IMG/VR virus record: IMGVR_UViG_3300018422_000002
Coordinates: 64,001 to 93,372 of that record
Direction: 5' to 3' (one strand)
Length of the DNA: 29,372 nucleotides
DNA from: a virus
Position 1 is the stretch's first letter; every line of letters starts with the position of its first letter. The notes below the pieces were generated by a model that saw nothing but the letters and a program-made list of their open reading frames with translations, was not told where the DNA came from and made no database searches. This document shows positions 3,157 to 28,357 of the stretch, piece after piece. The translations under genes and the position numbers were made by a program.

Positions 3157-4380
3157 TTAAGCCGATACTAGCAGGTTAGCGTCCCGACGTACGGTCACGT
3201 GCTGTTCGACGAGGCGCTCACGCTCGCCGATCAACGTGCCGACGATCGAGCCTGGGTGGCCGTCGAGGCTCGCCTTACACCACTCACCGATCCACCTACC
3301 ACAGATGACGGTTATTCCCTTGCCCCAGGTGGCACGTAGGTTCGCCTGGTTCTTAAGCGGTCGGATGCGCCAGTCGTCGGGAAAGCCCATGACACGTGCC
3401 GCCTCACGGTGCGTGATGGTCCGAGGTTCCCACGGGTGGAGTACCATGTCGAGCGCCGATCCCATGATGACGCGACCGCGTCGCTCGGCGTCCCAGCGCG
3501 TGATCGACGCGAACCCCATGTGCCACTTCTTAGCGAGCAGCTTGGGAAGCATGTGATCCCACGACGGTGGTAGCTTGCCGGTCGTCTCGTACGCACGCTG
3601 CGCGACGCGTCCGATGGACCAGCCGGCGGGCCACCCACCGTCCTCGGCCACGTACTCCATGAGGTCCAACGCGCGGGTGATCGGCAGTCCACGGTGCACC
3701 GCGTGACCGTCGAACGTCGTGCAGTCGCCGCGCGCTCCCTCGGTCCACCACGTGGCCGGTCGTCGGTACGGCTGGGACTCCCAGGTTAGTGGGTGGTTGG
3801 CGAGGTCCGACCAGACGTCCTTCAGCAGCGGACGCCGTCGCAGCGTCGGGTACTCGACGCCGAACGGTACCCGCGACAGCACCATGAAGTAGCGCGGACG
3901 TCGCGCCGCACCACCGAGGTCGATCGCGTCCTGCATGACGTGGTAGAGGTCGTAGCGGAGACCGGTGAGCTCCTCCAGCTTGGCGCGCAGCGCCTGCATG
4001 AGCGGTCGCCCGCCGGTGTACGCCTGGCGGACGGACTCCATGATCATGATCTGCGGCCTGATCCGCGCCGTGTAGTCGATCAGCACATGCATACACTGGT
4101 TGATCTTAGAGTCCATGCCTCGGTGGCGGTTGTCAGTCATGGGACTGAAGCCCGAGCACGGTGGGTTGGCCGCCACCACGTCGGCGTACGGCGCGTGCCA
4201 CTCGTCCGGCGTTGTCGCCTGCGCGGTCCACGCGTCGCCGAGCAGCGGTCGGTTGCCTAGGCAGTTGCCCATGCCGAAGCCGCCGACCTGCTCGACCTTG
4301 TGAACGAACGTGAAGCCCGCCTGGACCATGCCGAGGTCGAATCCGCCCGCGAACGACTGACAGGCCACAAAGGTGTACAC
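3157..4380 (-). CDS. C5-cytosine-specific DNA methyltransferase
   Basis: Protein of 407 residues from GTG 4380 (AAGG upstream). The order of motifs fits the m5C methyltransferase family: motif I FAGGFDLGMVQAGF (10-23, SAM binding), motif IV ANPPCSGFSP (71-80, catalytic Cys75), motif VI MESV (114-117) and motif VIII AARRPRYFMVL (158-168). A late TWGKGITV stands where the GNxV of motif X is expected. Motifs IV and VI deviate from the usual GPPCQ and ENV, yet the catalytic Cys and Glu are present. Roles could be self-protection, evasion of restriction, or a first step in further cytosine modification. It follows the dUTPase-like and glycosyltransferase genes in the same direction, separated from the former by 9 nt. 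Which sequence it methylates cannot be told. Confidence 0.85.
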   Translation of the reverse strand: MYTFVACQSFAGGFDLGMVQAGFTFVHKVEQVGGFGMGNCLGNRPLLGDAWTAQATTPDEWHAPYADVVAANPPCSGFSPMTDNRHRGMDSKINQCMHVLIDYTARIRPQIMIMESVRQAYTGGRPLMQALRAKLEELTGLRYDLYHVMQDAIDLGGAARRPRYFMVLSRVPFGVEYPTLRRRPLLKDVWSDLANHPLTWESQPYRRPATWWTEGARGDCTTFDGHAVHRGLPITRALDLMEYVAEDGGWPAGWSIGRVAQRAYETTGKLPPSWDHMLPKLLAKKWHMGFASITRWDAERRGRVIMGSALDMVLHPWEPRTITHREAARVMGFPDDWRIRPLKNQANLRATWGKGITVICGRWIGEWCKASLDGHPGSIVGTLIGERERLVEQHVTVRRDANLLVSA

Positions 4381-4389
4381 GGTGTTACC

Positions 4390-4857
4390 TTAGCTTGCGG
4401 ACGACGTATCGATGCAAGCACACATGGCGGGTGCCAGTGAGTCCGCCGGTCGACAGATCGTCGCCCGGTCGTCGTACGCACGACCACAGTTCCAACACTT
4501 ATCGGACACACCGTCGTAGACACCACGTTGACGGTTCCGGTTGACCTCCTGCTTCGCACGGTACGCGTGCTGCCACTCGGCGTCGGTGACGTCCAGCACG
4601 CACAGGAGGTTCGCCAGGAAGTGCGCTACGTCGACGAGCTCACCGAGCGCGGCGTCTCGGTTGACCCAGCCGCGTGGTGTCGCCCACGGCTTCCAGCCGA
4701 CCTCCTGCATGAACTCGGACAGTTCCACCACGGCCGCCGAGTGGTTCTCGGTCACGTAGTCGGCGAGCTCGTCCGGGTCGGTGATCGGAAAGCTACGCTG
4801 GAAGTACTCCTCCTGCAGCGCCCGCGTCGACGCCAGCCAGTTCCACGTTCCCGTCAA
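4390..4857 (-). CDS. All-alpha NTP pyrophosphatase (dimeric dUTPase/dCTPase-like) with Cys-rich tail
   Basis: Protein of 155 residues, starting at TTG 4857 with AAAGG 7 nt upstream. Residues about 40-115 match the all-alpha dUTPase/MazG fold: ELSEFMQEVGWKPW (45-58) and ELVDVAHFLANLL (73-85) supply the acidic metal ligands, and the AKQEVNRNRQ stretch (101-110) matches the KxxxNxxRQ substrate-binding motif. Enzymes of this type hydrolyse dUTP and/or dCTP to the monophosphate; in T-even phages such an activity removes dCTP so that a modified cytosine is used. The C-terminus adds a CWNC...C...CAC cluster (Cys 121, 124, 135, 146, 148), possibly a zinc knuckle, which the basic family lacks. It overlaps the end of the glycosyltransferase gene by 65 nt, an unusually long overlap. 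Substrate choice (dUTP or dCTP) is open. Confidence 0.75.
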   Translation of the reverse strand: MTGTWNWLASTRALQEEYFQRSFPITDPDELADYVTENHSAAVVELSEFMQEVGWKPWATPRGWVNRDAALGELVDVAHFLANLLCVLDVTDAEWQHAYRAKQEVNRNRQRGVYDGVSDKCWNCGRAYDDRATICRPADSLAPAMCACIDTSSAS

Positions 4858-6301
4858 GATTCAACCTTTCCTCGATCGTTCGTTCCAGAAACCTATCGGT
4901 CCAGCGGCGGTAGAGTAGGTCCCGCTGGAGGTCGACCAGTCGACGCCACGTGTCCTCGTCGTTAGTGATGAACCGCGCACGCTCGGTGAACTCGGCGGGA
5001 GTCTCGACGCGAAGCCACGTCGCCAACGCGAGGTCCTCGGTCGTCCAGTCGTCGCGGACGGAGTACAGGTCGACGCCGCCGTACGTACCAACCTGGTGCG
5101 TACCGGGTGCCCGTCGACGACTGGGTAACGTCCAGCCCTGCTCGTCGACCTGCTCGACGTAGAAGCAGACGCTGTTCGCGGCCCAGCACTGGTACGCCTT
5201 CGCGACGCTCCAGCCAGACTCGACGATGGGCAGCGACAGCGTCACGCGGAACCGCTCGAGCAGCCCGTAGAACTCGTCCGGCGTCGTCTCACGCACGGTG
5301 TCGTCTGGCACGTCCGCCAGGCTGGCGGCGTCCCACTTACCGTAGACCTCGGCGTCGGTGAACGCCGCGAGTAGGTAGTCGTTCACGAGCTTCGACCGAC
5401 GACGACCCTCGCCGAGGACCGACGCCTTCGTGCTGGTCGTCGCGATCCCGGCGGGGACGCGCTGGTCGAACGACGGTGTGCCCAGCTGTTCCCAGTCGTC
5501 CGGCAGGATCATCAACTCGAGGTCCGCGTGACGGTACGTGTGCTGCGCGTTCCACAGCTCGTGCTCGCCGGCCTCGTTGGGTCGCTCGAGCGTGACTCCC
5601 CGGAACCCGAGCGCCTCGGGCGCGCGGTGATCACCGTAGCGCTCGTGTCGCTGTGAGCGCTTGAACGTGTACTGCGCGAGCATCTCGTCGGTACCGGAGG
5701 GCCACTTGACGTCGCGTGCCTTCAGGTAGTTGCGTGGGTCCGGGACGAGCCAGACGACCGGTGCACGGCCGAGCGTCTTGTCGCCGAGCGCGTTCAGTCC
5801 GCGCACCAGGTAGCGGCAGTACGTCTGCATCGAGTCGTAGACCCGGTTGCCGTCGAGGTTGGGGTTCGTGAACGTCTCGTACCACGTCCGGTTCGCCTGC
5901 GGGATGCGCAGCTGCGTCGGCGCGTGCTGGCCGACGTGCAGCACCATCCCGTCGAGGTCGCTGATGAGCTCCACCAGCTCGTCCTCGAACCCCGACACCT
6001 CACTGCACCACCACGCCGGTTTCGCGGTCCAGTACGGCTCGAAGGGCGTACGGTAGTACCCGTCGGTGCGCGGGGCGAGCGCGACGGCTCGTTCCCGCGC
6101 ACCGAACCACGGGTTGCTGACGTTCGGTAGGTCGAGCGGCCGCTCGCCGGCGTCGTTGTGCCCGACGACGACCCACTCGACGTCCGGACTACGACGGGCG
6201 AGTCGCGCGAGCAGCTGCGGCTTCTCCGCGTCTCCCTGGAAGCCCCACCTTCCTGACTCGAACTTCATGGTCCGACCTAGGACCGCGTAGCCGATCCTCA
6301 C
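4793..6301 (-). CDS. GT-B-like glycosyltransferase, candidate DNA-modifying enzyme
   Basis: The GTG at 6301 is chosen because it shares GTGA with the stop of the preceding gene and yields a first beta strand MRIGYAVLGRTMKF. That gives 502 residues. The N-terminal half resembles a Rossmann-like GT-B domain (VEWVVVGHNDAGERP at about 41-55, LDGMVLHVGQHAPTQL around 116-131). The C-terminal half has SGWSVAKAYQCWAANSVCFY at about 362-381, which matches the donor-binding segment of phage GT-B enzymes in which an aromatic/Gly-rich loop precedes a short-helix W/F-rich motif. The likely reaction is transfer of a sugar from a nucleotide donor. Its position next to the nucleotidyltransferase-kinase, the dUTPase-like gene and a cytosine methyltransferase suggests modified DNA bases as acceptor. 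A role on lipid or protein cannot be excluded. Confidence 0.65.
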   Translation of the reverse strand: MRIGYAVLGRTMKFESGRWGFQGDAEKPQLLARLARRSPDVEWVVVGHNDAGERPLDLPNVSNPWFGARERAVALAPRTDGYYRTPFEPYWTAKPAWWCSEVSGFEDELVELISDLDGMVLHVGQHAPTQLRIPQANRTWYETFTNPNLDGNRVYDSMQTYCRYLVRGLNALGDKTLGRAPVVWLVPDPRNYLKARDVKWPSGTDEMLAQYTFKRSQRHERYGDHRAPEALGFRGVTLERPNEAGEHELWNAQHTYRHADLELMILPDDWEQLGTPSFDQRVPAGIATTSTKASVLGEGRRRSKLVNDYLLAAFTDAEVYGKWDAASLADVPDDTVRETTPDEFYGLLERFRVTLSLPIVESGWSVAKAYQCWAANSVCFYVEQVDEQGWTLPSRRRAPGTHQVGTYGGVDLYSVRDDWTTEDLALATWLRVETPAEFTERARFITNDEDTWRRLVDLQRDLLYRRWTDRFLERTIEERLNLDGNVELAGVDAGAAGGVLPA

Positions 6302-6510
6302 GTCGTCGCTCGCAACCCGTCGACGATCCGCAGCGCCCAGTGAAGATAGCACCTCTCGGCGATGATGTGTTGTCCGTCACCGTCGACGCCGCTCACGGTG
6401 TACACCGTCGTGCCCGGCTGGTTGTCGAACTCGACGATCCAGTAACAGGTCTCACGCGCGGCGATGACGGCGCTCGCCGGTCGTCGGTAGTCCTCGGGAA
6501 TCTTAGTCAT
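6298..6510 (-). CDS. Small protein, unknown
   Basis: Protein of 70 residues with an ATG start (6510) and GAGGAG 4 nt upstream. It has beta-rich patterning (CYWIVEFDNQPGTTVYTVSG, then IIAERCYLHWALRIVDGL). It overlaps the preceding gene by 8 nt and the glycosyltransferase start by 4 nt, so it belongs to that operon. No family is recognised. Confidence 0.65.
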   Translation of the reverse strand: MTKIPEDYRRPASAVIAARETCYWIVEFDNQPGTTVYTVSGVDGDGQHIIAERCYLHWALRIVDGLRATT

Positions 6511-6793
6511 GCTGCTCCTCGTCGATCAACCACGCGAGCTGATCGCGTAGCTGACGCACGGTCTTAGCGGACAAATGAATCGTGGCCTCCTCGGTCGGCG
6601 ACGTTGGGTCGTTGCGGTCGGTGGGCTGGTCGACACGTAGCCAGACGGATGGCTCAGCTGTGGCCGCTGACGACGCGTAGACGCGGACGCTGCCTCCGCA
6701 CGGTCGATCGCCGTAGGACGCGAGCAGTTCTGGTAGGTGTGGAAAACCGCGTAGTGAGTAGTTAGGAACTAGGTGACTGAGCGCGTCGGTCAC
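6503..6793 (-). CDS. Small protein, unknown
   Basis: Protein of 96 residues from GTG 6793, with a strong GGAGGAGGTG upstream and a 4-base overlap with the stop of the nucleotidyltransferase-kinase gene. The middle (GSVRVYASSAATAEPSVWLRV) looks like a beta hairpin and the C-terminus (KTVRQLRDQLAWLIDEEQHD) a helix. No family is recognised. It is coupled to the modification-gene cluster by its overlaps. Confidence 0.65.
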   Translation of the reverse strand: MTDALSHLVPNYSLRGFPHLPELLASYGDRPCGGSVRVYASSAATAEPSVWLRVDQPTDRNDPTSPTEEATIHLSAKTVRQLRDQLAWLIDEEQHD

Positions 6794-8307
6794 GTCACCT
6801 CCTCCAGCAACCGCGTCCCACGAGCGACCAGGATCTCATCCATCGGCGCGGCGTGAAGCGCGGCGCTCCCGATCAACGTCAGCGCGGCGATACGACGCAC
6901 GTCGTCGAGGTCGACGTGGAACCGACTGACGACCGCGTCCTCGAGCGTCGCGCGGTGCTCCGCGCCCTGGGTCCACCGACGAAAATCACCATACGCCGCG
7001 CGTCCCCAGTGGAAGTGCGTTCCGCCGAGCAGCTTACCTAGGTCGTACCGTAGATCACCCCACGTCGTCTCACCGGCGAAGTCCTCCCGCCAGTCGATGC
7101 CCACGAGGTTGCCGTTCCAGTCGTCGTCCCACCAGATGACGTTGGCGAACGTCAGGTCACCGTGAAACGTACCGGGTACACACCCGTCGACGAGGGCCTC
7201 CCAGTCGACGCGCGTCACGGCGTCGAGCGCGATCGACCGTAGCGTCGGGTCGAGGGACATGATGCGCGAGAACGTCTTATCGCGGTAGAACCTCATCGTG
7301 AGCTCACGCCAGTCCGGTGGACGCTCCTGGAGCTGCGTACGTGTGGTCCACAGGTGATCGTCCCACCAGTCGAGCAGCGACGACACGGCGAACCTACTAC
7401 AGTGCTCGTAGAGCGTCGCACCGTCCACGAACTCGTACGCCATCATCGTCGAACCGACCGGCTCGACGACCGGCGGCACCACGACGTCGAGCAGCTTAGC
7501 GCGCTCGTAGCGCCACGTCACCTTCTGACGGTCGACGTGCCACTTAACGACGCGTCGCTGCCGTGGCAGGACGTACGTCACCTGGTCGGGCTTAAGGGCG
7601 TCGTAGCCGGTCCGCGACGCGAGCGCGGACCGGTAGGCGGCCTCGTCGCCGACGTCGAGCCAACGGATGTGACGTAGCTCGAGCGGTACGCCCTCGTCTA
7701 GGATCGCCTGCAGTCCGCTGGACAGCTGAACCTCACCGGCGACCTGGTCGGCGTCGACGAGACCGGCCCAGAACCGCTCCAGGTCGTCCTCCGCGACGCG
7801 AACGAACGCGGTGGACGCCAGCGAGCCCGGTACAACGTCCGGCGTCTTGTCGTGGATCTCGAGGACGTACTGCTGCGACTCGTCTGGGACGGCGCGACAC
7901 CAGCGTGCGGCCGGCGTACCCGCCGGGATCGGCGCGACCGCCAGCCACGACGCGTCACCGTCCCAGAGGCAGTCGTCCGGCTCCCACAGCGTGTCGCAGG
8001 CGGTGAACACCAGGTCGCCCTCGACCTCGGAACGCGCCATGAGCAGCGACGCGCCGGGACCGCGACCCCACTCGACCTCCTTGACGAACGTCACGTCGAG
8101 GTCTGGGTGCGCGAGCCGTACGTACTCCTCCACCTGGTCGGCGCGGTAGCCGGTCACGACGACCAGCTTGGCCCCGGCGGGCGCCAGCTCGAACTGGTGG
8201 GACAGTACGGCCCGACCATCTAAGGGCAATAAAGCTTTAGGTAGTTCGTCACCAATGCGACCTAGACGTGAACCACGACCAGCAGCTAGTACAACGAATG
8301 TTACCAC
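6790..8307 (-). CDS. Bifunctional nucleotidyltransferase - APH/choline-kinase-like phosphotransferase
   Basis: The start is taken as GTG 8307, which overlaps the HNH stop by 7 nt and puts the first strand at residue 4. That gives 505 residues. Residues about 4-230 are a sugar-phosphate/choline-phosphate nucleotidyltransferase: VVLAAGRGSRLG (5-16) then ELPKALLPL, and an ACDTLW metal-binding motif. Residues about 245-505 are an aminoglycoside/choline-kinase-type phosphotransferase, with FHGDLTFANVIW (381-392, catalytic HGD and Asn) and GIDWRED as the metal motif. The order resembles LicC and LicA roles fused: phosphorylate a small alcohol or sugar, then activate it as an NDP derivative. The nearby glycosyltransferase is a natural consumer of such a donor. 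The actual substrate is unknown. The first about 30 codons are AT-rich, unlike the rest of the gene but like the neighbouring HNH gene. Confidence 0.75.
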   Translation of the reverse strand: MVTFVVLAAGRGSRLGRIGDELPKALLPLDGRAVLSHQFELAPAGAKLVVVTGYRADQVEEYVRLAHPDLDVTFVKEVEWGRGPGASLLMARSEVEGDLVFTACDTLWEPDDCLWDGDASWLAVAPIPAGTPAARWCRAVPDESQQYVLEIHDKTPDVVPGSLASTAFVRVAEDDLERFWAGLVDADQVAGEVQLSSGLQAILDEGVPLELRHIRWLDVGDEAAYRSALASRTGYDALKPDQVTYVLPRQRRVVKWHVDRQKVTWRYERAKLLDVVVPPVVEPVGSTMMAYEFVDGATLYEHCSRFAVSSLLDWWDDHLWTTRTQLQERPPDWRELTMRFYRDKTFSRIMSLDPTLRSIALDAVTRVDWEALVDGCVPGTFHGDLTFANVIWWDDDWNGNLVGIDWREDFAGETTWGDLRYDLGKLLGGTHFHWGRAAYGDFRRWTQGAEHRATLEDAVVSRFHVDLDDVRRIAALTLIGSAALHAAPMDEILVARGTRLLEEVT

Positions 8308-8756
8308 AACTTTTTCGCCTTTCCTCGTTGCATAGCATCTTGTTTCATCCAAATGTCATAACGTCCATGACACGGACTGCAAAGTTCAAGATAATCATTA
8401 CGATCATCTGAGAGCCACTTACCGGTAGAGTAACACTTAAACTTTTCATGCCCGGTAATTAAGGCAAGATCTCTAGCTTGTTGATCGCAGTGTTCACATT
8501 GACCGTTCCAGCGCTCAGCGCGTAACTTCTGGTGAACGGTCTTATAATGTAAATTTCTTAAAGCTGTAGAAAATTTAGGATGATTTACACCACGACGGCA
8601 GTTCTCTTTTTGCCGTTGAGCTACATCAGCTCGTCGTCTTAATGGGTTCTTATCACCGAGCATATCAGGACGTTTTACACCACGTGTGTTGTGGCCGCTG
8701 ATAAATCGTCGTTTAGGCTTAACGATCTCACCGCAGCCACAATCACACGTGGACAT
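8301..8756 (-). CDS. HNH homing-type endonuclease
   Basis: Protein of 151 residues with an ATG start (8756) and AGGAG 7 nt upstream. It opens with a Cys-rich CDCGCGEIVKPKRRFISGHN element as in many free-standing phage homing endonucleases. Residues about 75-140 are an HNH/zinc domain with CEHC, ITGHEKFKCYSTGKW, NDYLELCSPCHGRYD (the two CxxC pairs frame the site). The gene is clearly more AT-rich than its neighbours and uses different codons, a sign of recent arrival. It sits between a ssDNA-binding-like gene and the nucleotidyltransferase gene, and its stop overlaps the start of the latter. Confidence 0.85.
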   Translation of the reverse strand: MSTCDCGCGEIVKPKRRFISGHNTRGVKRPDMLGDKNPLRRRADVAQRQKENCRRGVNHPKFSTALRNLHYKTVHQKLRAERWNGQCEHCDQQARDLALITGHEKFKCYSTGKWLSDDRNDYLELCSPCHGRYDIWMKQDAMQRGKAKKLW

Positions 8757-16463: not shown

Positions 16464-16645
16464 GATCGTCCTCCTCGCGCCTCGTCGGACCACGTGAGCG
16501 TGATCGGTCCTACGACGTGCGCCGCCTCACGGACCGCGCGAAGCACCTCGATCGACACCTCGTCTGGTCGGCGCCACCCCGTGATAGGACACGGTATCGT
16601 GATGCACGGCTTCAGCGGTGGCAGTACGTCGATCATCTTCATCAT
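16460..16645 (-). CDS. Small protein, unknown
   Basis: The ATG at 16645 overlaps the PolA stop (ATGA), giving 61 residues: MMKMIDVLPPLKPCITIPC at the start, then a helical region (PDEVSIEVLRAVREAAHVVG). It has two Cys close together. No family is recognised. It is translationally coupled to PolA on one side and to the membrane peptide on the other. Confidence 0.6.
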   Translation of the reverse strand: MMKMIDVLPPLKPCITIPCPITGWRRPDEVSIEVLRAVREAAHVVGPITLTWSDEARGGRS

Positions 16646-18435
16646 TCTGACGCCGCCCATCCTGGTCCGACGTCGATCGACGACGTGATCGGAACGTTGA
16701 GCAGCTTATCGTCGTTCATGACGTCCTTGATCGTCACGAGCACGTCGTCGAACTGCTCGTTCGGTACGCTGTAGTTCTGCTCGTCGTGAACCGGAAAGAG
16801 CATAAACTCGCCGAGTCCCGCCTGGTCCGCCTCGACGATCTTCATCTTAAGAATCTCACCGGCCATGCCCTGCAGGTCGTAGTTGACGAGTGTGTACAGC
16901 TTACCGGCGTCGGCGACGTGCTTGCGGTTGGTCAGCGGCGAGCGCACGTAGGCCTCGCCCTCGTCGTTCAGTCGCGCGAGCGCGTCGCGCTCGACCTGTC
17001 GGATCCAGCGGGGGACGGCTGGATACATGGCGTCGAACCGCTGCATGAACTCGTACGCCTCGTTCTCCGGTACACCGGCGGTCGCGGCGAACTTCGGGAT
17101 GCCCGCGCCGTAGATCTTGGCGTAGCCACCGTTCTTGATCAGCTGTCGTCGCGGATCGCTCTTCTTAAAGTTAGGATCGGCGAAGATGTCGCGTCCTAGA
17201 TTCACAAAGAAGTCGCCCTCTGACCTAAACGCCTCGATCATTCGTTCGTCGTTCGACATGTGTGCCATGGCGCGCATCTCTATCTGCGAGAAGTCGGCCT
17301 TGACCCACGAGTGTCCTGGGTCGGCGACGAAGCAGCGACGGATCTTCGTACTCGCCTTCCCGCGCACCGGTACGTTCTGGATGTTGGGGTTGGACGACGA
17401 CATACGACCGGTCCGGACGCCGCTCGACCCACCCGGCTCGAACGGACTCTTACCCATGCCACCGACGGTGTTGATCGACGGGTGGATGCGACCGTCGCGC
17501 TCGGACATGTCCAGGTAGTTCTGCAGGTAGGTCGTCACCATCTTCTGCGCCTGGCGACGGCCGAGGACGGTCTGCGCGAGGGGATGATCGATCGCGCCGA
17601 GGACGTGCTTGTCGAGGCTGAGACGGCCGGCCTCCGTGTACTGTGTGAACTCGATCCCCTCGGCCTGCAGGGCCTCGATGACCTTGACGTTCGAGCCGGC
17701 GTAGACGCCGTACTGGGCGTGACACCAGGCCTCGGCCTGCTCCATGTACTCGGACAGCTCGTCGGCAAACGCCCGCGTGTACTCGCGGTCGACCAGCACG
17801 CCGCGTCGCTCCATGCGCTCGCAGACCCACGCGACCGCCAGCTCCAGGTCGTACGACGCCGGGGCCTCCCGCTGGACCAGCGGGTCGAGGACGTCGTCAA
17901 GCTGGTATGTTAGGATCGTGTCCAGCGCGCCGTACGACCAGTACGGCTCGTAGTCGAGCGGGATGGTCGCCCAGGTCCAGCCGCTCTTAGTCATTACGTC
18001 GGACAGGTCGTCCTGGAACATGGCGGCGCGTGGGTCGACGTGTCGCTTGGCTAGGCTCTTAAGTGCCAGTGAACCGGTGGACTCGATGACGTGTGCCTTG
18101 AGTCGCGTGTCGTGCGACCTGGTCTCGGGAAGACCGACGCCGAGCGCGTTGCGCAGCATCGCGTCGTCGAAGACCAGGTTGTGGGCGACGTAGTCGCCCT
18201 CGAACCGGGTCAGTAGCTCGACGACCAACGCGGACCAACCGGGATGCTCGATCGGGATCGCGTACGCCTGACGCGCGTCGCCGAGCTGGACGAGCCGCGC
18301 GCGGTCGGTGTCCTTGGACAGTCCGGTCGACTCGGTGTCGATCGCGACGCGGTCGAGCGTGGACAGCCAGCGCTTACACTCGTACGCGGTCTCGACGTCG
18401 TCGACTAGGTGAACTCTAACGCCATCAAGTGACAA
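16642..18435 (-). CDS. Family A DNA polymerase with 3'-5' exonuclease domain
   Basis: Protein of 597 residues from TTG 18435, with AGGAG 6 nt upstream. The exonuclease domain has IDTESTG (32-38, Asp33 and Glu35), AHNLVFDDAML (84-94) and YGALDTILTYQL (168-179). The polymerase has motif A KADFSQIEMR (379-388, Asp381), the O-helix RQLIKNGGYAKIYG (430-443) and motif C VHDE (548-551). At the O-helix position equivalent to Phe762 of E. coli Pol I this enzyme has Tyr438, as T7 polymerase does. There is no 5' nuclease domain, as in T7-type phage polymerases. It is the replicative polymerase of this phage. A small ORF lies just upstream. Confidence 0.95.
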   Translation of the reverse strand: MSLDGVRVHLVDDVETAYECKRWLSTLDRVAIDTESTGLSKDTDRARLVQLGDARQAYAIPIEHPGWSALVVELLTRFEGDYVAHNLVFDDAMLRNALGVGLPETRSHDTRLKAHVIESTGSLALKSLAKRHVDPRAAMFQDDLSDVMTKSGWTWATIPLDYEPYWSYGALDTILTYQLDDVLDPLVQREAPASYDLELAVAWVCERMERRGVLVDREYTRAFADELSEYMEQAEAWCHAQYGVYAGSNVKVIEALQAEGIEFTQYTEAGRLSLDKHVLGAIDHPLAQTVLGRRQAQKMVTTYLQNYLDMSERDGRIHPSINTVGGMGKSPFEPGGSSGVRTGRMSSSNPNIQNVPVRGKASTKIRRCFVADPGHSWVKADFSQIEMRAMAHMSNDERMIEAFRSEGDFFVNLGRDIFADPNFKKSDPRRQLIKNGGYAKIYGAGIPKFAATAGVPENEAYEFMQRFDAMYPAVPRWIRQVERDALARLNDEGEAYVRSPLTNRKHVADAGKLYTLVNYDLQGMAGEILKMKIVEADQAGLGEFMLFPVHDEQNYSVPNEQFDDVLVTIKDVMNDDKLLNVPITSSIDVGPGWAASE

Positions 18436-18547: not shown

Positions 18548-19411
18548 TTATGGAAACACTATGACGTCAAGACCGCACGTCATGATAAACTCGATCGTGG
18601 TCTTGGGGTCACGATACCAGTCCTGCGGTAGCACTCGTGTAACTACACGTCTTAGACCTGAGTTTGACAGAAGCTTAGCGCAACCAAAGCACGGAGCGGT
18701 CGATATGTACGCGCTACCACCTTCGTGAAGTGATCGATCACTCTGCATAAGTGCGTTGGTCTCAGCGTGTGCTGCCACACAGTTGTCGTAGTCCTTAGGT
18801 GCGAGTCTGGTGGTTGCACGTGGACAAAAGCCGTCGCACATCTCGGTCTCAAGTTGAATTCCGGCAGGCGGTCCGTTGTATCCTTGGGCGGTAACTCGGT
18901 TGTAGCTAGTCACAATGACGCAACCGGCTTGTCTACGAACACATCGGGATCGTGCACCAATGATCTCGGCACTCTCGATCCACGTCTCATCCCACGATGG
19001 CCGCAGCGGCTTACTTCGTGGACCTCGTGCACGTCCCTTTTCAGCCATGTCGCGGTTGTTGTCAGCAAGTGTTCCGCCAATTAGGTGATCTGGATCAACG
19101 CACATTGGTACGTCACACTTATGCATAACGATCGGTGGCTTTGCACCGTGTACTAACTCGTAGACGAGTCGAGTAACGGCCTGCGTTGATTCGTTCTTAA
19201 GGTTGATTACCGGATAACCACTCTGATACTTTTTCTTAGGTTTCGTCCGTGCAGCAAGCCACTTAAGACAGCCGGTTGAATCACGTACACATTGCCCGTA
19301 AGCGAACAGATGTTCGAGCGTTAGCTCCTCGCGTTGTAAACGTCGACGTGTGTTGATTGACGCACGTGTTCGATCGAGTGAGAATACACCTTCTTGTGTG
19401 ATCTTACTCAC
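18548..19411 (-). CDS. HNH endonuclease domain fused to dCMP deaminase
   Basis: Protein of 287 residues, GTG 19411 overlapping the stop of the hydroxymethylase-like gene. Residues about 1-130 are an HNH homing domain: VMHKCDVPMCVDPDHLIGG then TLADNNRDMAEKGR (His97, His109, Asn118-119). Residues about 140-287 are a zinc deoxycytidylate deaminase: HAETNAL (215-221, zinc His and catalytic Glu) and PCFGC (240-244, zinc Cys). Deaminases convert dCMP to dUMP, feeding thymidylate or hydroxymethyl-pyrimidine synthesis. The gene is more AT-rich than its neighbours. One explanation is a homing endonuclease captured in frame upstream of the deaminase. The fusion's activity cannot be judged from sequence. 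Confidence 0.85.
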   Translation of the reverse strand: MSKITQEGVFSLDRTRASINTRRRLQREELTLEHLFAYGQCVRDSTGCLKWLAARTKPKKKYQSGYPVINLKNESTQAVTRLVYELVHGAKPPIVMHKCDVPMCVDPDHLIGGTLADNNRDMAEKGRARGPRSKPLRPSWDETWIESAEIIGARSRCVRRQAGCVIVTSYNRVTAQGYNGPPAGIQLETEMCDGFCPRATTRLAPKDYDNCVAAHAETNALMQSDRSLHEGGSAYISTAPCFGCAKLLSNSGLRRVVTRVLPQDWYRDPKTTIEFIMTCGLDVIVFP

Positions 19412-20283
19412 TCATCGTCCTCAGTCTGTGTGACGCCCAGTGCGACGAGCTGCCGGACGTACCACGGGTTGAGCGCGACGTCGATCGGTCGCGCCACGCC
19501 GTAGATCAACGCCTCGGCGACCTCGGTCGGGTACTCGGTAAGCGGTGACGACGAGATCACGCCACGTGGGTAGTCGGCCGGCCCAGGACGATCGTCGGGG
19601 CACCGCACCAGCTGGTGGGTCGCCACGAGGTCGGTCTCATACACGTGAAGACTACCGACGTGACACGTGAACCGGCCGGCGGCGACGCCCAGCTGATCAG
19701 CGAGTGACAGTTGAAGCTGCGAGAACATAAACACGTCGTATGGCGTGCCGCGCCAGACGTCCTGCGAGCGCATGGTGACGATGAGTCGAAGCTCGTCCTC
19801 GCCGTCCTCGGCGCGCTGACGCAGCAGGAACTGGAGCGACAGCGTACACGGTCGGTCGCCGTCGTGTGTCAGGTCCTCCTCACGCCAGATCGACAGCACG
19901 GCGCGACGCGTGTCGGGGTGCGCGTACAGCTCGTGGTACACCGCGTCGATCTGTTGACGAAGACGCGGACCGTACGACCCGTAGGTCAGCTCCTCCGGAC
20001 GCACCAGCACGTCGACGTACGACGGCGACGCTCGGAGCAGCAGCGCGGGGTCGCCGTCGCCGGACAGCAGCTGAAGAGCCTCGACGGCCGCCAGCCGGGT
20101 GTTGATCCCTCGGTTGACGCCGATGGGCAGCATGACGCCGGTCGGGTCGGCGAACGAGTAGGTCGCCGTGGTCAGCTCGCGGGTCGCGAGCCCACGTGAC
20201 GTCACCGACACGCCGTGGTTGACGACCTCGTCGACGAGCTCGACGTAGCCGTTGCGTAGGTCACCGAGGTCGACGTAGGTCAC
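19408..20283 (-). CDS. Thymidylate-synthase-family enzyme, predicted dCMP hydroxymethylase
   Basis: Protein of 291 residues from GTG 20283, overlapping the kinase stop by 4 nt. It follows the TS fold: YGSYGPRLRQQIDAVYHEL (101-119), RRAVLSIW, RPCTLSLQFLL (144-154, nucleophile Cys146), MRSQDVWRGTPYDVF (171-185) and GSLHVYE (210-216, His213 and Tyr215). In TS the residue two before the FN/YN helix is Asn, which binds dUMP; here it is Asp183. In T4 dCMP hydroxymethylase and in engineered TS, Asp at this site selects dCMP. So the likely product is 5-hydroxymethyl-dCMP (or 5-methyl-dCMP), a precursor for modified DNA. Flanked by a dCMP deaminase and a dNMP kinase, this supports a modified-cytosine pathway. 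Confidence 0.75.
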   Translation of the reverse strand: MTYVDLGDLRNGYVELVDEVVNHGVSVTSRGLATRELTTATYSFADPTGVMLPIGVNRGINTRLAAVEALQLLSGDGDPALLLRASPSYVDVLVRPEELTYGSYGPRLRQQIDAVYHELYAHPDTRRAVLSIWREEDLTHDGDRPCTLSLQFLLRQRAEDGEDELRLIVTMRSQDVWRGTPYDVFMFSQLQLSLADQLGVAAGRFTCHVGSLHVYETDLVATHQLVRCPDDRPGPADYPRGVISSSPLTEYPTEVAEALIYGVARPIDVALNPWYVRQLVALGVTQTEDDE

Positions 20284-21269
20284 GTCATCACCACCGGACG
20301 TTGAACGTTCAACAACGACTCGAGGTACGCACGTCGGTCGTGGTGCCTAAATCTGCGCTGGTACTGTGGGTGCGCGACCTTGCGGTTCGGTACGTGCACC
20401 CTACGCAGCGCACGCTGCGCGTTGATCCCGAGCCCGACGACGTCCGGGCGGTCGAGCACCTTCCACAGCGCGCCGACGTCGTCCACGTCGCAGGCGTTGA
20501 CCACGCCGACGTCACGGAGGGTCACGCCGTGCTGGGCGACGGTCAGCTCGTTCATGACCAGCGTGGTCAGCAGGTACGCGCCGGACGTCCCAGGCACCGG
20601 CGAGAACGCGGGCCAGCTGCCGAACTCACGGACGTCGTGCGACGGCGTACCGCGTCGGTCGCCGGCCAGCAGCAGCGACGGACGCGGCGGACCGACGTAC
20701 GTGACGTACGGATTCAGCGGTCGTGCGTCGCGGTCACGACGTCCGGCGACGTCGACGACGTTGGCGACGGTAGCCGCGTAGTTCGATCGACCAGGATCGG
20801 ACACGTCTACGGTGACGACCGGTAGCAGCGATCGAGCGACGGCGCGGTCGAACGCGACGCGCGTCGGTCGAACGCGGTCGAGGTCGAGCTGGTCGTCGCC
20901 ACGCGCTCGGCCGCAGGTCTCGAGCCAGTCGGGGTTGGCGGTGCAGTAGACGAGCTGTGCGCCTCGGGACCGCAGGAACAGCTCGACGTAGAGCCGGACG
21001 TCCTCGGTCATGTCCGTGTGACGACCAAGTAGGTCTGGGTAGACGGACTCACCGACGTGCCAGCGGTCGATGACGTAGTGGACGCCGGTGCCGGGACGGT
21101 AGTCGAGCAGCGGCTCGACGTACTCGGTCAGTGGGTGGTCTACCGGTGGTCCGCTGTGAAGGTACCGAACGTCCGCGTTTGGCTCACCGTGTCGTAGCGC
21201 GGCGATGAGGCGACCGGCGAACGTTGACTTGCCGCTACAGTCTTGCCCGTCCAACAGGATTAAAGTCAA
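20280..21269 (-). CDS. dNMP kinase fused to UDG-superfamily-like domain
   Basis: Protein of 329 residues, TTG 21269; its GGAG ribosome site lies inside a 12-bp hairpin (21274-21304). Residues about 1-175 are a thymidylate/dNMP-kinase-like P-loop fold: GQDCSGKST (8-16) and the DRWHVGESVYPDL segment (68-80). Residues about 195-320 look like a uracil-DNA-glycosylase-superfamily fold: SLLLAGDRRGTPSHD, FSPVPGTSGAYLL, VGVVNACDV, VVGLGINAQRAL and HPQYQRRFRH (300-309, in the motif-2 position). A kinase next to a dCMP hydroxymethylase could convert hm-dCMP to the diphosphate, as T4 gp1 does. The glycosylase-like part may act on mispaired or unmodified bases. The link between domains is inference. Confidence 0.7.
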   Translation of the reverse strand: MTLILLDGQDCSGKSTFAGRLIAALRHGEPNADVRYLHSGPPVDHPLTEYVEPLLDYRPGTGVHYVIDRWHVGESVYPDLLGRHTDMTEDVRLYVELFLRSRGAQLVYCTANPDWLETCGRARGDDQLDLDRVRPTRVAFDRAVARSLLPVVTVDVSDPGRSNYAATVANVVDVAGRRDRDARPLNPYVTYVGPPRPSLLLAGDRRGTPSHDVREFGSWPAFSPVPGTSGAYLLTTLVMNELTVAQHGVTLRDVGVVNACDVDDVGALWKVLDRPDVVGLGINAQRALRRVHVPNRKVAHPQYQRRFRHHDRRAYLESLLNVQRPVVMT

Positions 21270-21841: not shown

Positions 21842-21914
21842 TTAGGTGAGCTGGACTTGAACCAGCAACATACGGTTTTCAGGACCGTCGCTCTGCCTAC
21901 TGAGCTATCGCCTA
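21842..21914 (-). tRNA. tRNA with anticodon read as UGA and C at position 33
   Basis: On the minus strand a full cloverleaf folds: acceptor TAGGCGA/TCACCTA with one C-A mismatch, D-arm GCTC/GAGC with a GG loop, anticodon stem ACGGT/ACCGT, variable loop ATGTT, T-arm GCTGG TTCAAGT CCAGC, and discriminator A. The seven-base anticodon loop is CCTGAAA. In the perfect register the anticodon is UGA and position 33 is C instead of the near-universal U. Shifting by one gives GAA (Phe) but breaks the anticodon stem. The Ser-type long variable arm is absent. No CCA is encoded. Identity is therefore uncertain. Confidence 0.6.
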
Positions 21915-21995: not shown

Positions 21996-22070
21996 TGGTG
22001 GCGGGGGCCGGACTCGAACCGACATCTCCCGGGTTATGAGCCCGGTTCTCTACCGTTAAGATACCCCGCA
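21996..22070 (-). tRNA. tRNA-Met(CAU), initiator-like, CCA encoded
   Basis: A full cloverleaf is read on the minus strand. The acceptor has six G-C/C-G pairs (GCGGGG with CCCCGC) and a U-C mismatch at 1-72. The D-arm is closed by TCTT/GAGA, the anticodon stem is CCGGG/CCCGG with loop CTCATAA (CAU), the variable loop is 5 nt, and the T-arm is GTCGG TTCGAGT CCGGC, followed by A and an encoded CCA. The 1-72 mismatch and the three consecutive G-C pairs next to the anticodon loop are hallmarks of bacterial initiator tRNA. The C11-G24 pair is elongator-like. It lies exactly between the two halves of the candidate permuted tRNA, with single-base spacers. Confidence 0.85.
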
Positions 22071-26386: not shown

Positions 26387-28042
26387 TCAGACGTCGCCTC
26401 GTGCGAAGTCCGAGATCAACTCCGGCGTCGCCGTGTCAAAGCCCACGACGTCCAGCGACAGCGGATCGGCCGGGTCCGCGACGGTCAGCTCGGTCGCGGT
26501 CATGCCGACCACGATCAGCCGCGCCGCGATGCCGGTGCGCTCGCGGTACCGCCGCAGCGCCTCGTGTGGGTGCACACGACCGGCCCAGGTCTCGTTGTCC
26601 GTGTAGATCACGAACGTGTCGACCTCGAGGCCGTACTCCAGCGCGTACAGCATCGGCAGCGCGCAGTCCGTGCGACCGAACGGTAGCGACTGGACGTGTC
26701 GAATCACGTCGTCGAGTCGCTGACGCGTCGAGATCGCCAGCGGCGCCACGGCGGGCGTGGACCGGTAGCCGTATGTGCTCGTCGGACCCACGCCGGTGAA
26801 CGCCAGCAGCTCGTAGCTGCTCTCCACGTTCGCCGTGACCAGCGCGAGCGCGGCGGACGCGTCGCGCGGCGTCAGCGGCGTCTTGGCGATCTGGGACTGA
26901 GTCATCGAGCCGGACACGTCCAGCGCGAGCAGTAGCCGGCGCCCGGTCGGCGTCACGGCACCGAACGCGGCGTAGAACGCGGCGTCGAGCGCGTCCACGA
27001 TCGGACGCGACGGCGTCCACGTCGAGCTGCCCCGGTCCGAGCGACCGGACGCGTAGGTGCGCTGCGCGACGAGCAGCGACAGCGGGTGCACGCGACCACG
27101 GCGCAGCCGCTCGACGTCGGTAAGTAGCCGCACGACGTGCGGCGTCCAATTACCGGTCGCCGTGACCATGCCGAGCCGCGTGAGACGTGGTAGCTGTCGC
27201 ATGAGCGCGGTCGCCGGTACGCCGACCTCGAGCAGCGCATCCCAGACCTCGGTGGTGTTGATGACCTCGTCCGACAACGTCTCCCACGGCAGACGGTAGG
27301 TGCGCACGAGCTGGGCGGCACGTCGCCGGTTCGTCTCGCGGCGGACGCGCTCGTAGCCCTCGACGAGCCACAGCGGGTCGTCGGTGGGCAGCGGCGACGT
27401 CAGGTCCAGGTCGTGACGACCGGTCGTCCAGCCGAGCAGGAAGTCACGCGCGTCGTCGCCCGGCAGCGGCCGGGGGTGCGCCTTCCGCAGCACGTCGCGG
27501 TGCGTCCACCCCTCGCGCTGCCGGTACTTGACGAGCTGGTAGGCGACGTCCTCGACGGAGCCCTCGAGGTACCACCTACCGACGCCTCGACGCAGCGTCG
27601 GACCCCAGCCTCGGAACTGCTGGACGTAGTTCAGGAACGTGAACAGGTGCGTCCCAGTGCGCGCGACGCGTCGCAGCTGGGAGAGCGCGTACCAGCGGGC
27701 GCTGGCGTCGCCCTCCGACGCGGCCACGGCGAGCGCGAACAGCGCGGGCTCCGGGCGCGGCGCGCGGCCGGACTCGGACACCTCGACGATCACGTCGACG
27801 AGCTGCCGGTGGTGCGTGCTCGCCGCGTCGACGACGACCTGGGCGTTCTCGAGCGTGAGCTCACGCTCGCCGACGTGGTACGTACCACCGGCGACGCCCA
27901 GCACGAGAAAGCGACGCAGCCGCTGGAGCGCGTCGACGGTGAACGAGAAGCCGCCCGCGTGGTTCGGAACCTGGCGCGGGTCGGCGGCGCGGGACTGCGG
28001 CGTGGTGCGCGTGGACACGCGGCGCAGCGGATCGGTGGTCAT
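26387..28042 (-). CDS. rsr: Ro60/TROVE-domain RNA-binding protein
   Basis: The ATG at 28042 is chosen because AGGAG lies about 9 nt upstream; 551 residues. A longer reading upstream runs into the structured RNA units. The TROVE domain begins near VPNHAGGFSFTVDALQRLRR and continues with TYHVGERELTLENAQVVVD, then ARWYALSQLRRVARTGTHLF and GWTHRDVLRKAHP. The C-terminal von Willebrand-like domain has a MIDAS: DVSGS (375-379), Thr458 in FGRTD and Asp482 in YTDNE. Ro60 proteins form a ring that binds misfolded RNA and Y RNAs, and in bacteria they tether exonuclease PNPase. Four Y-like RNA units lie immediately upstream (28070-28448). This is one of the better-supported functional calls in the window. 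Confidence 0.9.
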   Translation of the reverse strand: MTTDPLRRVSTRTTPQSRAADPRQVPNHAGGFSFTVDALQRLRRFLVLGVAGGTYHVGERELTLENAQVVVDAASTHHRQLVDVIVEVSESGRAPRPEPALFALAVAASEGDASARWYALSQLRRVARTGTHLFTFLNYVQQFRGWGPTLRRGVGRWYLEGSVEDVAYQLVKYRQREGWTHRDVLRKAHPRPLPGDDARDFLLGWTTGRHDLDLTSPLPTDDPLWLVEGYERVRRETNRRRAAQLVRTYRLPWETLSDEVINTTEVWDALLEVGVPATALMRQLPRLTRLGMVTATGNWTPHVVRLLTDVERLRRGRVHPLSLLVAQRTYASGRSDRGSSTWTPSRPIVDALDAAFYAAFGAVTPTGRRLLLALDVSGSMTQSQIAKTPLTPRDASAALALVTANVESSYELLAFTGVGPTSTYGYRSTPAVAPLAISTRQRLDDVIRHVQSLPFGRTDCALPMLYALEYGLEVDTFVIYTDNETWAGRVHPHEALRRYRERTGIAARLIVVGMTATELTVADPADPLSLDVVGFDTATPELISDFARGDV

Positions 28043-28069
28043 CGGTCGAGAGCTCCTAACGTGATACGA

Positions 28070-28159
28070 CGACGGCGTCGCGAGCGAGTGTGACGGTGAC
28101 CGGTTGGAATCATCTTGGAAGGGTGATAACCGACCACCTGGCGGCCCGCGACGCCGTCG
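28070..28159. ncRNA. Structured RNA unit 1 (Y-like RNA, next to Ro60)
   Basis: A perfect 13-bp terminal stem (28070-28082 with 28147-28159) encloses AGCGAGTG...GCGGCC. The second helix is GGTG/CACC, then a symmetric AC/AC loop, then CGG/CCG, and an apical hairpin ATCATC...GGTGAT. Strand is unresolved: on the minus strand the AC/AC loop becomes tandem G-U pairs and transcription would run into the Ro60 gene, but the apical stem is better paired on the plus strand. The sequence of its terminal stem is unrelated to those of units 2-4, yet complementarity is kept. Confidence 0.75.
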
Positions 28160-28168
28160 AACGTGGGT

Positions 28169-28245
28169 GGAACGAGCGAGTGATTGACGACCGGTGTTTT
28201 GTGTACCAGTTACAGTGGTTAACCGACCGTCGAGCGGCCCGTCCC
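28169..28245. ncRNA. Structured RNA unit 2 (Y-like RNA)
   Basis: It has the same AGCGAG...GCGGCC frame. The terminal stem GGAACG/CGTCCC is short, and its one A-C pair becomes G-U on the minus strand. The second helix GACG/CGTC replaces GGTG/CACC of unit 1 at the same position, followed by the AC/AC loop and CGG/CCG. On the minus strand the apical hairpin is ACCA/TGGT with a 7-nt loop. This unit has the weakest terminal stem of the four. Confidence 0.65.
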
Positions 28246-28253
28246 TAAGGCTA

Positions 28254-28329
28254 GCGCGGTGAGCGAGTGGTTGTCGACCGGGTTTACACCTCAGAATGGT
28301 TAACCGACCGAACGAGCGGCCCACCGCGC
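28254..28329. ncRNA. Structured RNA unit 3 (Y-like RNA)
   Basis: The terminal stem GCGCGGTG/CACCGCGC (8 bp) frames AGCGAG...GCGGCC. The second helix is TCG/CGA, then AC/AC and CGG/CCG. The apical hairpin TTA-ACC...GGT-TAA has one bulged base and a 7-nt loop. All inner helices agree with units 1, 2 and 4 in position. Confidence 0.75.
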
Positions 28330-28357
28330 GTCGCCTATACGCTGTTGAGTTGTCGTC

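Follow-up and report, generated by a model that had tools for sequence, protein, structure and literature searches.

A predicted dCMP 5-hydroxymethylase, listed as thymidylate synthase, in a freshwater actinophage lineage

Introduction

In bacteriophage T4, the dCMP hydroxymethylase gp42 (PDB 6a9a and 6a9b) owes its dCMP specificity to Asp179, while Asp145, three residues before the catalytic cysteine, activates the water that leads to the hydroxymethyl group, and the D145N substitution abolishes activity (PMC6400193, available text). According to the same text, the K133R/A176S substitutions switch MilA, the Streptomyces CMP 5-hydroxymethylase (5jnh, 5b6d, 5jp9), from CMP to dCMP. The available text of the MetaGPA study (PMC8670742) describes thymidylate synthase (TS) homologues on cytosine-modified contigs that carry Asp at position 177, differ at position 147 as the second residue distinguishing modified from unmodified contigs, and co-occur with dCMP deaminase. 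The switch from Asn to Asp, the reading of it as a marker for cytosine modification in phage DNA and this co-occurrence have thus already been published, with a carbamoyltransferase as the partner enzyme studied.

Here we analysed a 29,372-nucleotide stretch of viral DNA (the window), spanning positions 64001-93372 of a virus record 93,372 bases long (IMGVR_UViG_3300018422_000002), in which a TS-superfamily protein of 291 residues resembles these enzymes and the partner is a glycosyltransferase candidate resembling T4 DNA beta-glucosyltransferase (BGT) instead. By this 291-residue protein, the nearest annotated phages are the lake metagenome phage DSL-LC01, two uncultured records with identical scores, and Gordonia phages. 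DSL-LC01 has a predicted host in the Actinomycetia (PMC10611076, available text), and its annotated gene order is that of the window, with thymidylate kinase, thymidylate synthase, deaminase and DNA polymerase I. The kinase-like, dCMP deaminase and PolA genes found near our gene are a set common to freshwater actinophages. The dCMP-type enzymes of DSL-LC01 and of Gordonia phages Forza and Phendrix are still annotated 'thymidylate synthase', and the terms 'thymidylate synthase' and 'hydroxymethyl' are absent from the available main text on DSL-LC01 (PMC10611076). When the first 25 kb of the window were used in a near-DNA search, no phage record matched, and a literature search, with most subscription papers outside its reach, returned no description of DNA modification in this actinophage lineage.

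Results

The GTG start codon of the hydroxymethylase candidate (Table 1) and the TGA of the upstream gene overlap, as do the candidate's own TGA and the GTG of the gene downstream; these GTGA junctions on both sides are arranged as in a coupled operon. The encoded protein belongs to the thymidylate synthase superfamily, as had been proposed, with the TS fold and a PF00303 score of 80.2 bits against a Pfam cut-off of 24.3. The 93-kb record holds no other TS homologue, and a search of this record for ThyX returned no match. Just upstream of the operon lie genes for tRNA-Ser(tga) (21842-21914, minus strand) and tRNA-Met(cat) (21996-22070, minus strand). Elsewhere in the window, the product of 26387-28390 (minus strand), which is kept in locus L005, matches the RNA-binding protein family phrog_850 (8.7e-91) and is presumably Ro60/TROVE-like.

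Table 1. Features of the window discussed in the text
Feature	Coordinates	Strand	Evidence
C5-cytosine DNA methyltransferase homologue	3157-4380	-	PF00145 3.1e-19; PC and ExV catalytic motifs kept
All-alpha NTP pyrophosphohydrolase (dUTPase_2/MazG type); candidate for removing dCTP/dUTP	4390-4857	-	PF08761 3.9e-9; phrog_18650 1.8e-31
GT-B-like protein resembling T4 BGT; candidate hydroxymethylcytosine-DNA glycosyltransferase	4793-6352	-	AF2/VIA; hhalign
Nucleotidyltransferase (sugar/polyol-phosphate type); candidate maker of activated sugar	6790-8352	-	NTP_transf_3 3.6e-16
Family A DNA polymerase; likely user of modified dCTP	16642-18435	-	PF00476 3.8e-67
dCMP deaminase with N-terminal HNH endonuclease domain	18548-19411	-	PF00383 7.2e-14; HNH_3 1e-5; phrog_174 6.4e-37
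Predicted TS-superfamily dCMP 5-hydroxymethylase	19408-20283	-	PF00303 1.9e-22; MilA best structure and PDB sequence match; residue panel
P-loop deoxynucleoside-monophosphate kinase-like protein; candidate hydroxymethyl-dCMP kinase	20280-21269	-	phrog_761 and YorR profile matches

In the 291-residue protein, Cys146 is the predicted nucleophile, Asp183 the predicted cytosine-binding residue and Asp143 the predicted water-activating residue, with Glu68, Tyr104, Arg126 and His213/Tyr215 as further active-site residues. MAFFT alignments place Asp183 in one column with Asn177 of E. coli TS, Asp179 of T4 gp42 and the Asp of MilA, and the phmmer alignment to MilA also pairs the two Asp residues. These alignments confirm the original prediction that Asp183 is the equivalent of the dUMP-binding Asn, as in T4 dCMP hydroxymethylase, and Cys146, R172-S173-Q174-D175 and H213-V214-Y215 were likewise found where they had been placed. 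Asp143 lies three residues before Cys146, at the water-activating position of the T4 enzyme, and the cysteine is followed by Thr147, which counts towards a dCMP hydroxymethylase because position 147 differs between modified and unmodified contigs. Where dUMP thymidylate synthases have Asn177, Leu143, Trp83 and a C-terminal tail, the window protein has Asp183, Asp143, Val and the terminus QTEDDE without a tail like that of E. coli TS, EcThyA and other TS rows ending in AV or AI; Ser211 stands where E. coli TS has Asp. With T4 gp42 it shares the two Asp residues, the Cys-Thr pair, a Glu (60 in T4, 68 here), a Tyr (96 and 104) and the missing tail, but it is about 45 residues longer, is encoded in a different operon and is very distant in the tree.

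One active-site position departs from the T4 enzyme. Gly102, two residues before the catalytic Tyr, occupies the place of T4 Ser94 in lieu of the proposed Ser/Thr signature, and 79 of 80 relatives (the best 80 of 500, see below) also have Gly there. Although Ser94 is part of a proposed hydroxymethylation signature, T4 S94A keeps about 25% activity (PMC6400193, available text) and the SPO1 gp29 protein has Ala, and we therefore do not take this position as defining.

We compared these residues with a panel of control enzymes. Thymidylate synthases of E. coli, SPbeta, PMBT1 and Kardesai combine Leu143 with Asn177; SPO1 gp29, a dUMP hydroxymethylase by annotation, and its Kuttervirus homologue have Asp143, Asn177 and Cys-Asn; T4 gp42 and MilA have Asp143, Asp177 and Cys-Thr; and RB69 and AfhB have Glu143 and Asp177, with Asn, Val and Phe at window positions 175, 179 and 215. 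E. coli TS positions 143, 147, 169 and 177 suffice to sort these controls by likely product, and the window protein agrees with the T4/MilA class at every diagnostic position. The Tedan and RHph_I1_9 rows fitted no class cleanly, and the Pseudoxanthomonas phage PW916 enzyme (L010:3280-4098) is annotated as a deoxyuridylate hydroxymethyltransferase, yet carries the dCMP-type Asp.

Two further phage enzymes annotated as thymidylate synthase, from Microbacterium phage Nicky22 (L017:4004-4903) and Salmonella phage ZCSE2 (L020:2971-3855), carry Asp177 together with Ile/Leu143, both active-site Trp residues and the TS tail, a pattern likely to be that expected of dCMP methylases. Such an enzyme would share the dCMP specificity and make 5-methyl-dCMP by folate hydride transfer, and the Asn-to-Asp change alone is described as converting a TS into a dCMP methylase (PMC8670742, available text and titles cited there). 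The window protein, however, has Asp143 and Ser211, lacks Trp83 and the tail, and finds its best structural match in the hydroxymethylase MilA, which leaves methylation a small chance. The earlier choice of hydroxymethyl- or methyl-dCMP rather than dTMP can accordingly be narrowed to hydroxymethyl, on the strength of Asp143 and the missing Trp83 and tail, unlike Nicky22 and ZCSE2, while its dCMP part stands on Asp183, Thr147, Asp143 and the operon.

Going by the PF00303 and PHROG names, the protein would be an ordinary thymidylate synthase, with the adjacent dCMP deaminase supplying its substrate, and that deaminase and the thymidylate-kinase-like neighbour would suit plain dTMP synthesis equally. 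Nonetheless, the dUMP enzymes of the panel keep Asn where the window protein has Asp183, Asp143 and the absent tail point the same way, and the NCBIfam TS equivalog models that it matched score far under their cut-offs, making this reading very improbable.

An AF2 model of the protein, built from 23 sequences, reached a mean pLDDT of 93.9. Among the VIA matches listed, the best were four MilA entries (Z 27.0-27.6), followed by AfhB 9iqc and 9iqu (22.9-23.1) and then thymidylate synthases (about 21); structures of the T4 dCMP hydroxymethylase were not among the matches listed, which excludes nothing. MilA was also the best PDB sequence match (phmmer 1.1e-15; profile 1.8e-40) and carries the same Asp/Asp/Thr set. 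As the nearest solved structure among the matches listed, MilA raises the question of a CMP hydroxymethylase that uses a ribonucleotide and serves metabolite synthesis, not DNA. This has a negligible chance: Lys133 and Ala176 of MilA are Arg126 and Ser173 here, which count for dCMP use because the same residues switched MilA from CMP to dCMP, and MilA serves an antibiotic pathway, whereas the window gene sits in a phage operon between dNMP-kinase-like and dCMP deaminase/PolA genes.

The RB69/HY126 enzyme AfhB, titled in the PDB as a dCMP hydroxylase with FAD, is likewise a TS-superfamily protein with the dCMP-type Asp and a near structural match. RB69-like phages make 5-hydroxy-dCMP with such an enzyme (PMC13390438, available text), and a 5-hydroxy-dCMP synthase in the window, whose 5-hydroxycytosine product would then be glycosylated, could draw on the nucleotidyltransferase and the glycosyltransferase candidate. 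Four active-site positions speak against it. The RB69-type set, which we defined from RB69 and 9iqu and which is not a published one, comprises Glu at Cys-3 and Asn, Val and Phe at 175, 179 and 215, whereas the window protein keeps the T4/MilA state at all four (Asp143, Asp175, Gly179 and Tyr215). In the tree of our small panel (46 rows), the hodC rows moreover form their own clade (support 100/99), and we judge this reading very unlikely, if a little less so than ordinary dTMP synthesis.

In the same tree, the 27 rows of actinophage type come together as one group (98/98), and the dCMP-hydroxymethylase signature set is not one clade, with three changes on long branches. An IMG/VR viral scan with the single protein found one locus; a scan with an alignment gave 500 confirmed relatives, of which the best 80 were examined. 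Asp143 and Asp183 occur in all 80 of these best 80 of 500, which argues that Asp183 is not there by chance. Both residues lay outside the scan patterns, which spanned P145-T147 and R172-D175, so conservation within these two spans is partly built in. Homologues of the kinase-like neighbour were found in 80, of PolA in 77 and of the dCMP deaminase in 75 of the same 80 loci (best 80 of 500), a count that takes in BLAST hits at 1e-4 from any part of a locus of at most 10 kb and does not imply adjacency in each locus.

The kinase-like protein matches phrog_761 thymidylate kinase (2.1e-4) and, by profile, SPbeta YorR 2axp (5.1e-22), and weak Thymidylate_kin and UDG matches appear in 12 and 3 of 20 family members, respectively. 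Its C-terminal 150 residues or so form a conserved domain that weakly resembles the uracil-DNA glycosylase superfamily, and a kinase-UDG fusion beside a hydroxymethylase would be odd. The HNH-bearing deaminase of the window is longer than those of DSL-LC01 and L005.

Elsewhere in the window, the GT-B-like ORF has no Pfam, PHROG or NCBIfam family match. Its AF2 model reached a pLDDT of only 62.5, and the top VIA matches were four T4 BGT structures (1j39 and 1qkj among them; Z 18.4-19.1), followed by T4 alpha-glucosyltransferase (AGT; 16.8) and other GT-B proteins (about 16); in BFVD, a protein named DNA beta-glucosyltransferase ranks second. A weak hhalign match between its family and a four-member BGT alignment (74.5%, E 2.7e-5, 143 columns) covers the C-terminal half, against 0.1% for another GT-B protein and 0.2% for the TS family as controls. 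A PDB hmmsearch with the family gave nothing useful (one calpain row, E 0.56), and comparison of the family with PHROGs found no relation to BGT. By eye, D-x-R and R-x-x-K motifs can be aligned with T4 BGT, the family's invariant Asp188-x-Arg190 resembling BGT Asp100-x-Arg102. BGT Asp100 has a catalytic role, and PDB entry 1nzd is titled as the D100A mutant. The product is about 150 residues longer than T4 BGT, has 12% identity to it and has no sequence-family match. It is a candidate DNA beta-glucosyltransferase; since it models best onto T4 BGT, the DNA may carry glycosylated hydroxymethylcytosine.

The neighbouring nucleotidyltransferase matches NCBIfam sugar-1-phosphate nucleotidyltransferase models under their cut-offs, and its C-terminal half looks phosphotransferase-like by eye. 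The NTP pyrophosphohydrolase has an uncertain true start and overlaps the BGT-like ORF over 4793-4857. These three genes and that for the C5-methyltransferase homologue recur together in four IMG/VR loci (L108, L109, L110 and L111). Five records were found with the BGT-like gene (one of them a second time, through the nucleotidyltransferase); the two long ones contain the hydroxymethylase, and it is absent from the three records of 6.5-12.2 kb. We then searched 36 records, namely those of 34 of the 80 hydroxymethylase loci, selected for contig span or closeness, and two reached through the BGT-like gene. The BGT-like protein is present in 9 of the 36 (7 of the 34), and the hydroxymethylase thus has a much wider distribution, although absences carry little weight where records are short fragments.

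Enterococcus phage nattely (L019:1998-4356) encodes, close together, a dCMP-hydroxymethylase-type protein and a protein with 41% identity to T4 beta-glucosyltransferase, both unannotated. In L129, L130 and L132, the gene beside distant BGT-like genes is, by eye, one that we take to be of the reversibly glycosylated polypeptide/UDP-arabinopyranose mutase type. Outside the window in the same record, GT2-type transferases, an NAD epimerase, a UDP-glucose dehydrogenase and a GT-B protein (L009:7692-14711, corresponding to G000 54692-61711) follow tail-like genes; because they may decorate virions, we do not use them as evidence for DNA glycosylation. hhalign gave no profile match between this GT-B protein and the BGT-like family.

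C5-methyltransferases cannot methylate a cytosine that is already substituted at C5. The C5-methyltransferase homologue is nevertheless found in 28 of the 36 records (26 of the 34), which is hard to square with full replacement of cytosine. Given its conservation with intact catalytic motifs, replacement may therefore be partial, the enzyme may act in another place, or it may serve another function.

Discussion

Taken together, our results identify the 291-residue protein as a predicted folate-dependent dCMP 5-hydroxymethylase, a reading to which we assign a probability of about 0.87. Counting against it are Gly102, the scattering of the signature set over the tree, the co-occurrence of the C5-methyltransferase and the fact that every activity is predicted. 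In the proposed reaction, Cys146 would attack C6 of dCMP, Asp183 would bind and protonate the cytosine ring, where the Asn of TS reads uracil, and methylene-tetrahydrofolate, activated via Glu68, would give the carbon. Water activated by Asp143, instead of hydride, would then add to the exocyclic methylene to yield 5-hydroxymethyl-dCMP. The adjacent kinase-like protein may phosphorylate this product while the NTP pyrophosphohydrolase and the dCMP deaminase drain dCTP and dCMP, and the phage PolA would build hydroxymethylcytosine into the viral DNA. Less surely, the BGT-like protein could then add a sugar that the neighbouring nucleotidyltransferase would supply.

From residues, fold, gene order and conservation, we infer that the virus probably carries hydroxymethylcytosine-modified DNA. 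The gene had been called the clearest clue to modified cytosine in this genome; the dCMP-type enzyme agrees with that view, but it is not the sole clue, as the BGT-like ORF offers another. More tentatively, and at somewhat less than even odds, these mostly uncultured actinophages may build glycosylated 5-hydroxymethylcytosine in the manner of T4, with a dCMP hydroxymethylase, a kinase, an NTP pyrophosphohydrolase and a highly diverged BGT relative with its own nucleotidyltransferase, and the adjoining C5-methyltransferase homologue may have this modified, or partly modified, DNA as its substrate and not plain sites of the host type.

Although this kind of enzyme is already known, the actinophage lineage and the BGT-like cassette are possibly new. 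Our findings add a lineage of freshwater actinophages, with dCMP-type enzymes still listed as 'thymidylate synthase', to those in which genome-wide cytosine modification is likely. If real, the BGT-like candidate would shield phages of this lineage from restriction and lay them open to defences directed at glycosylated bases.
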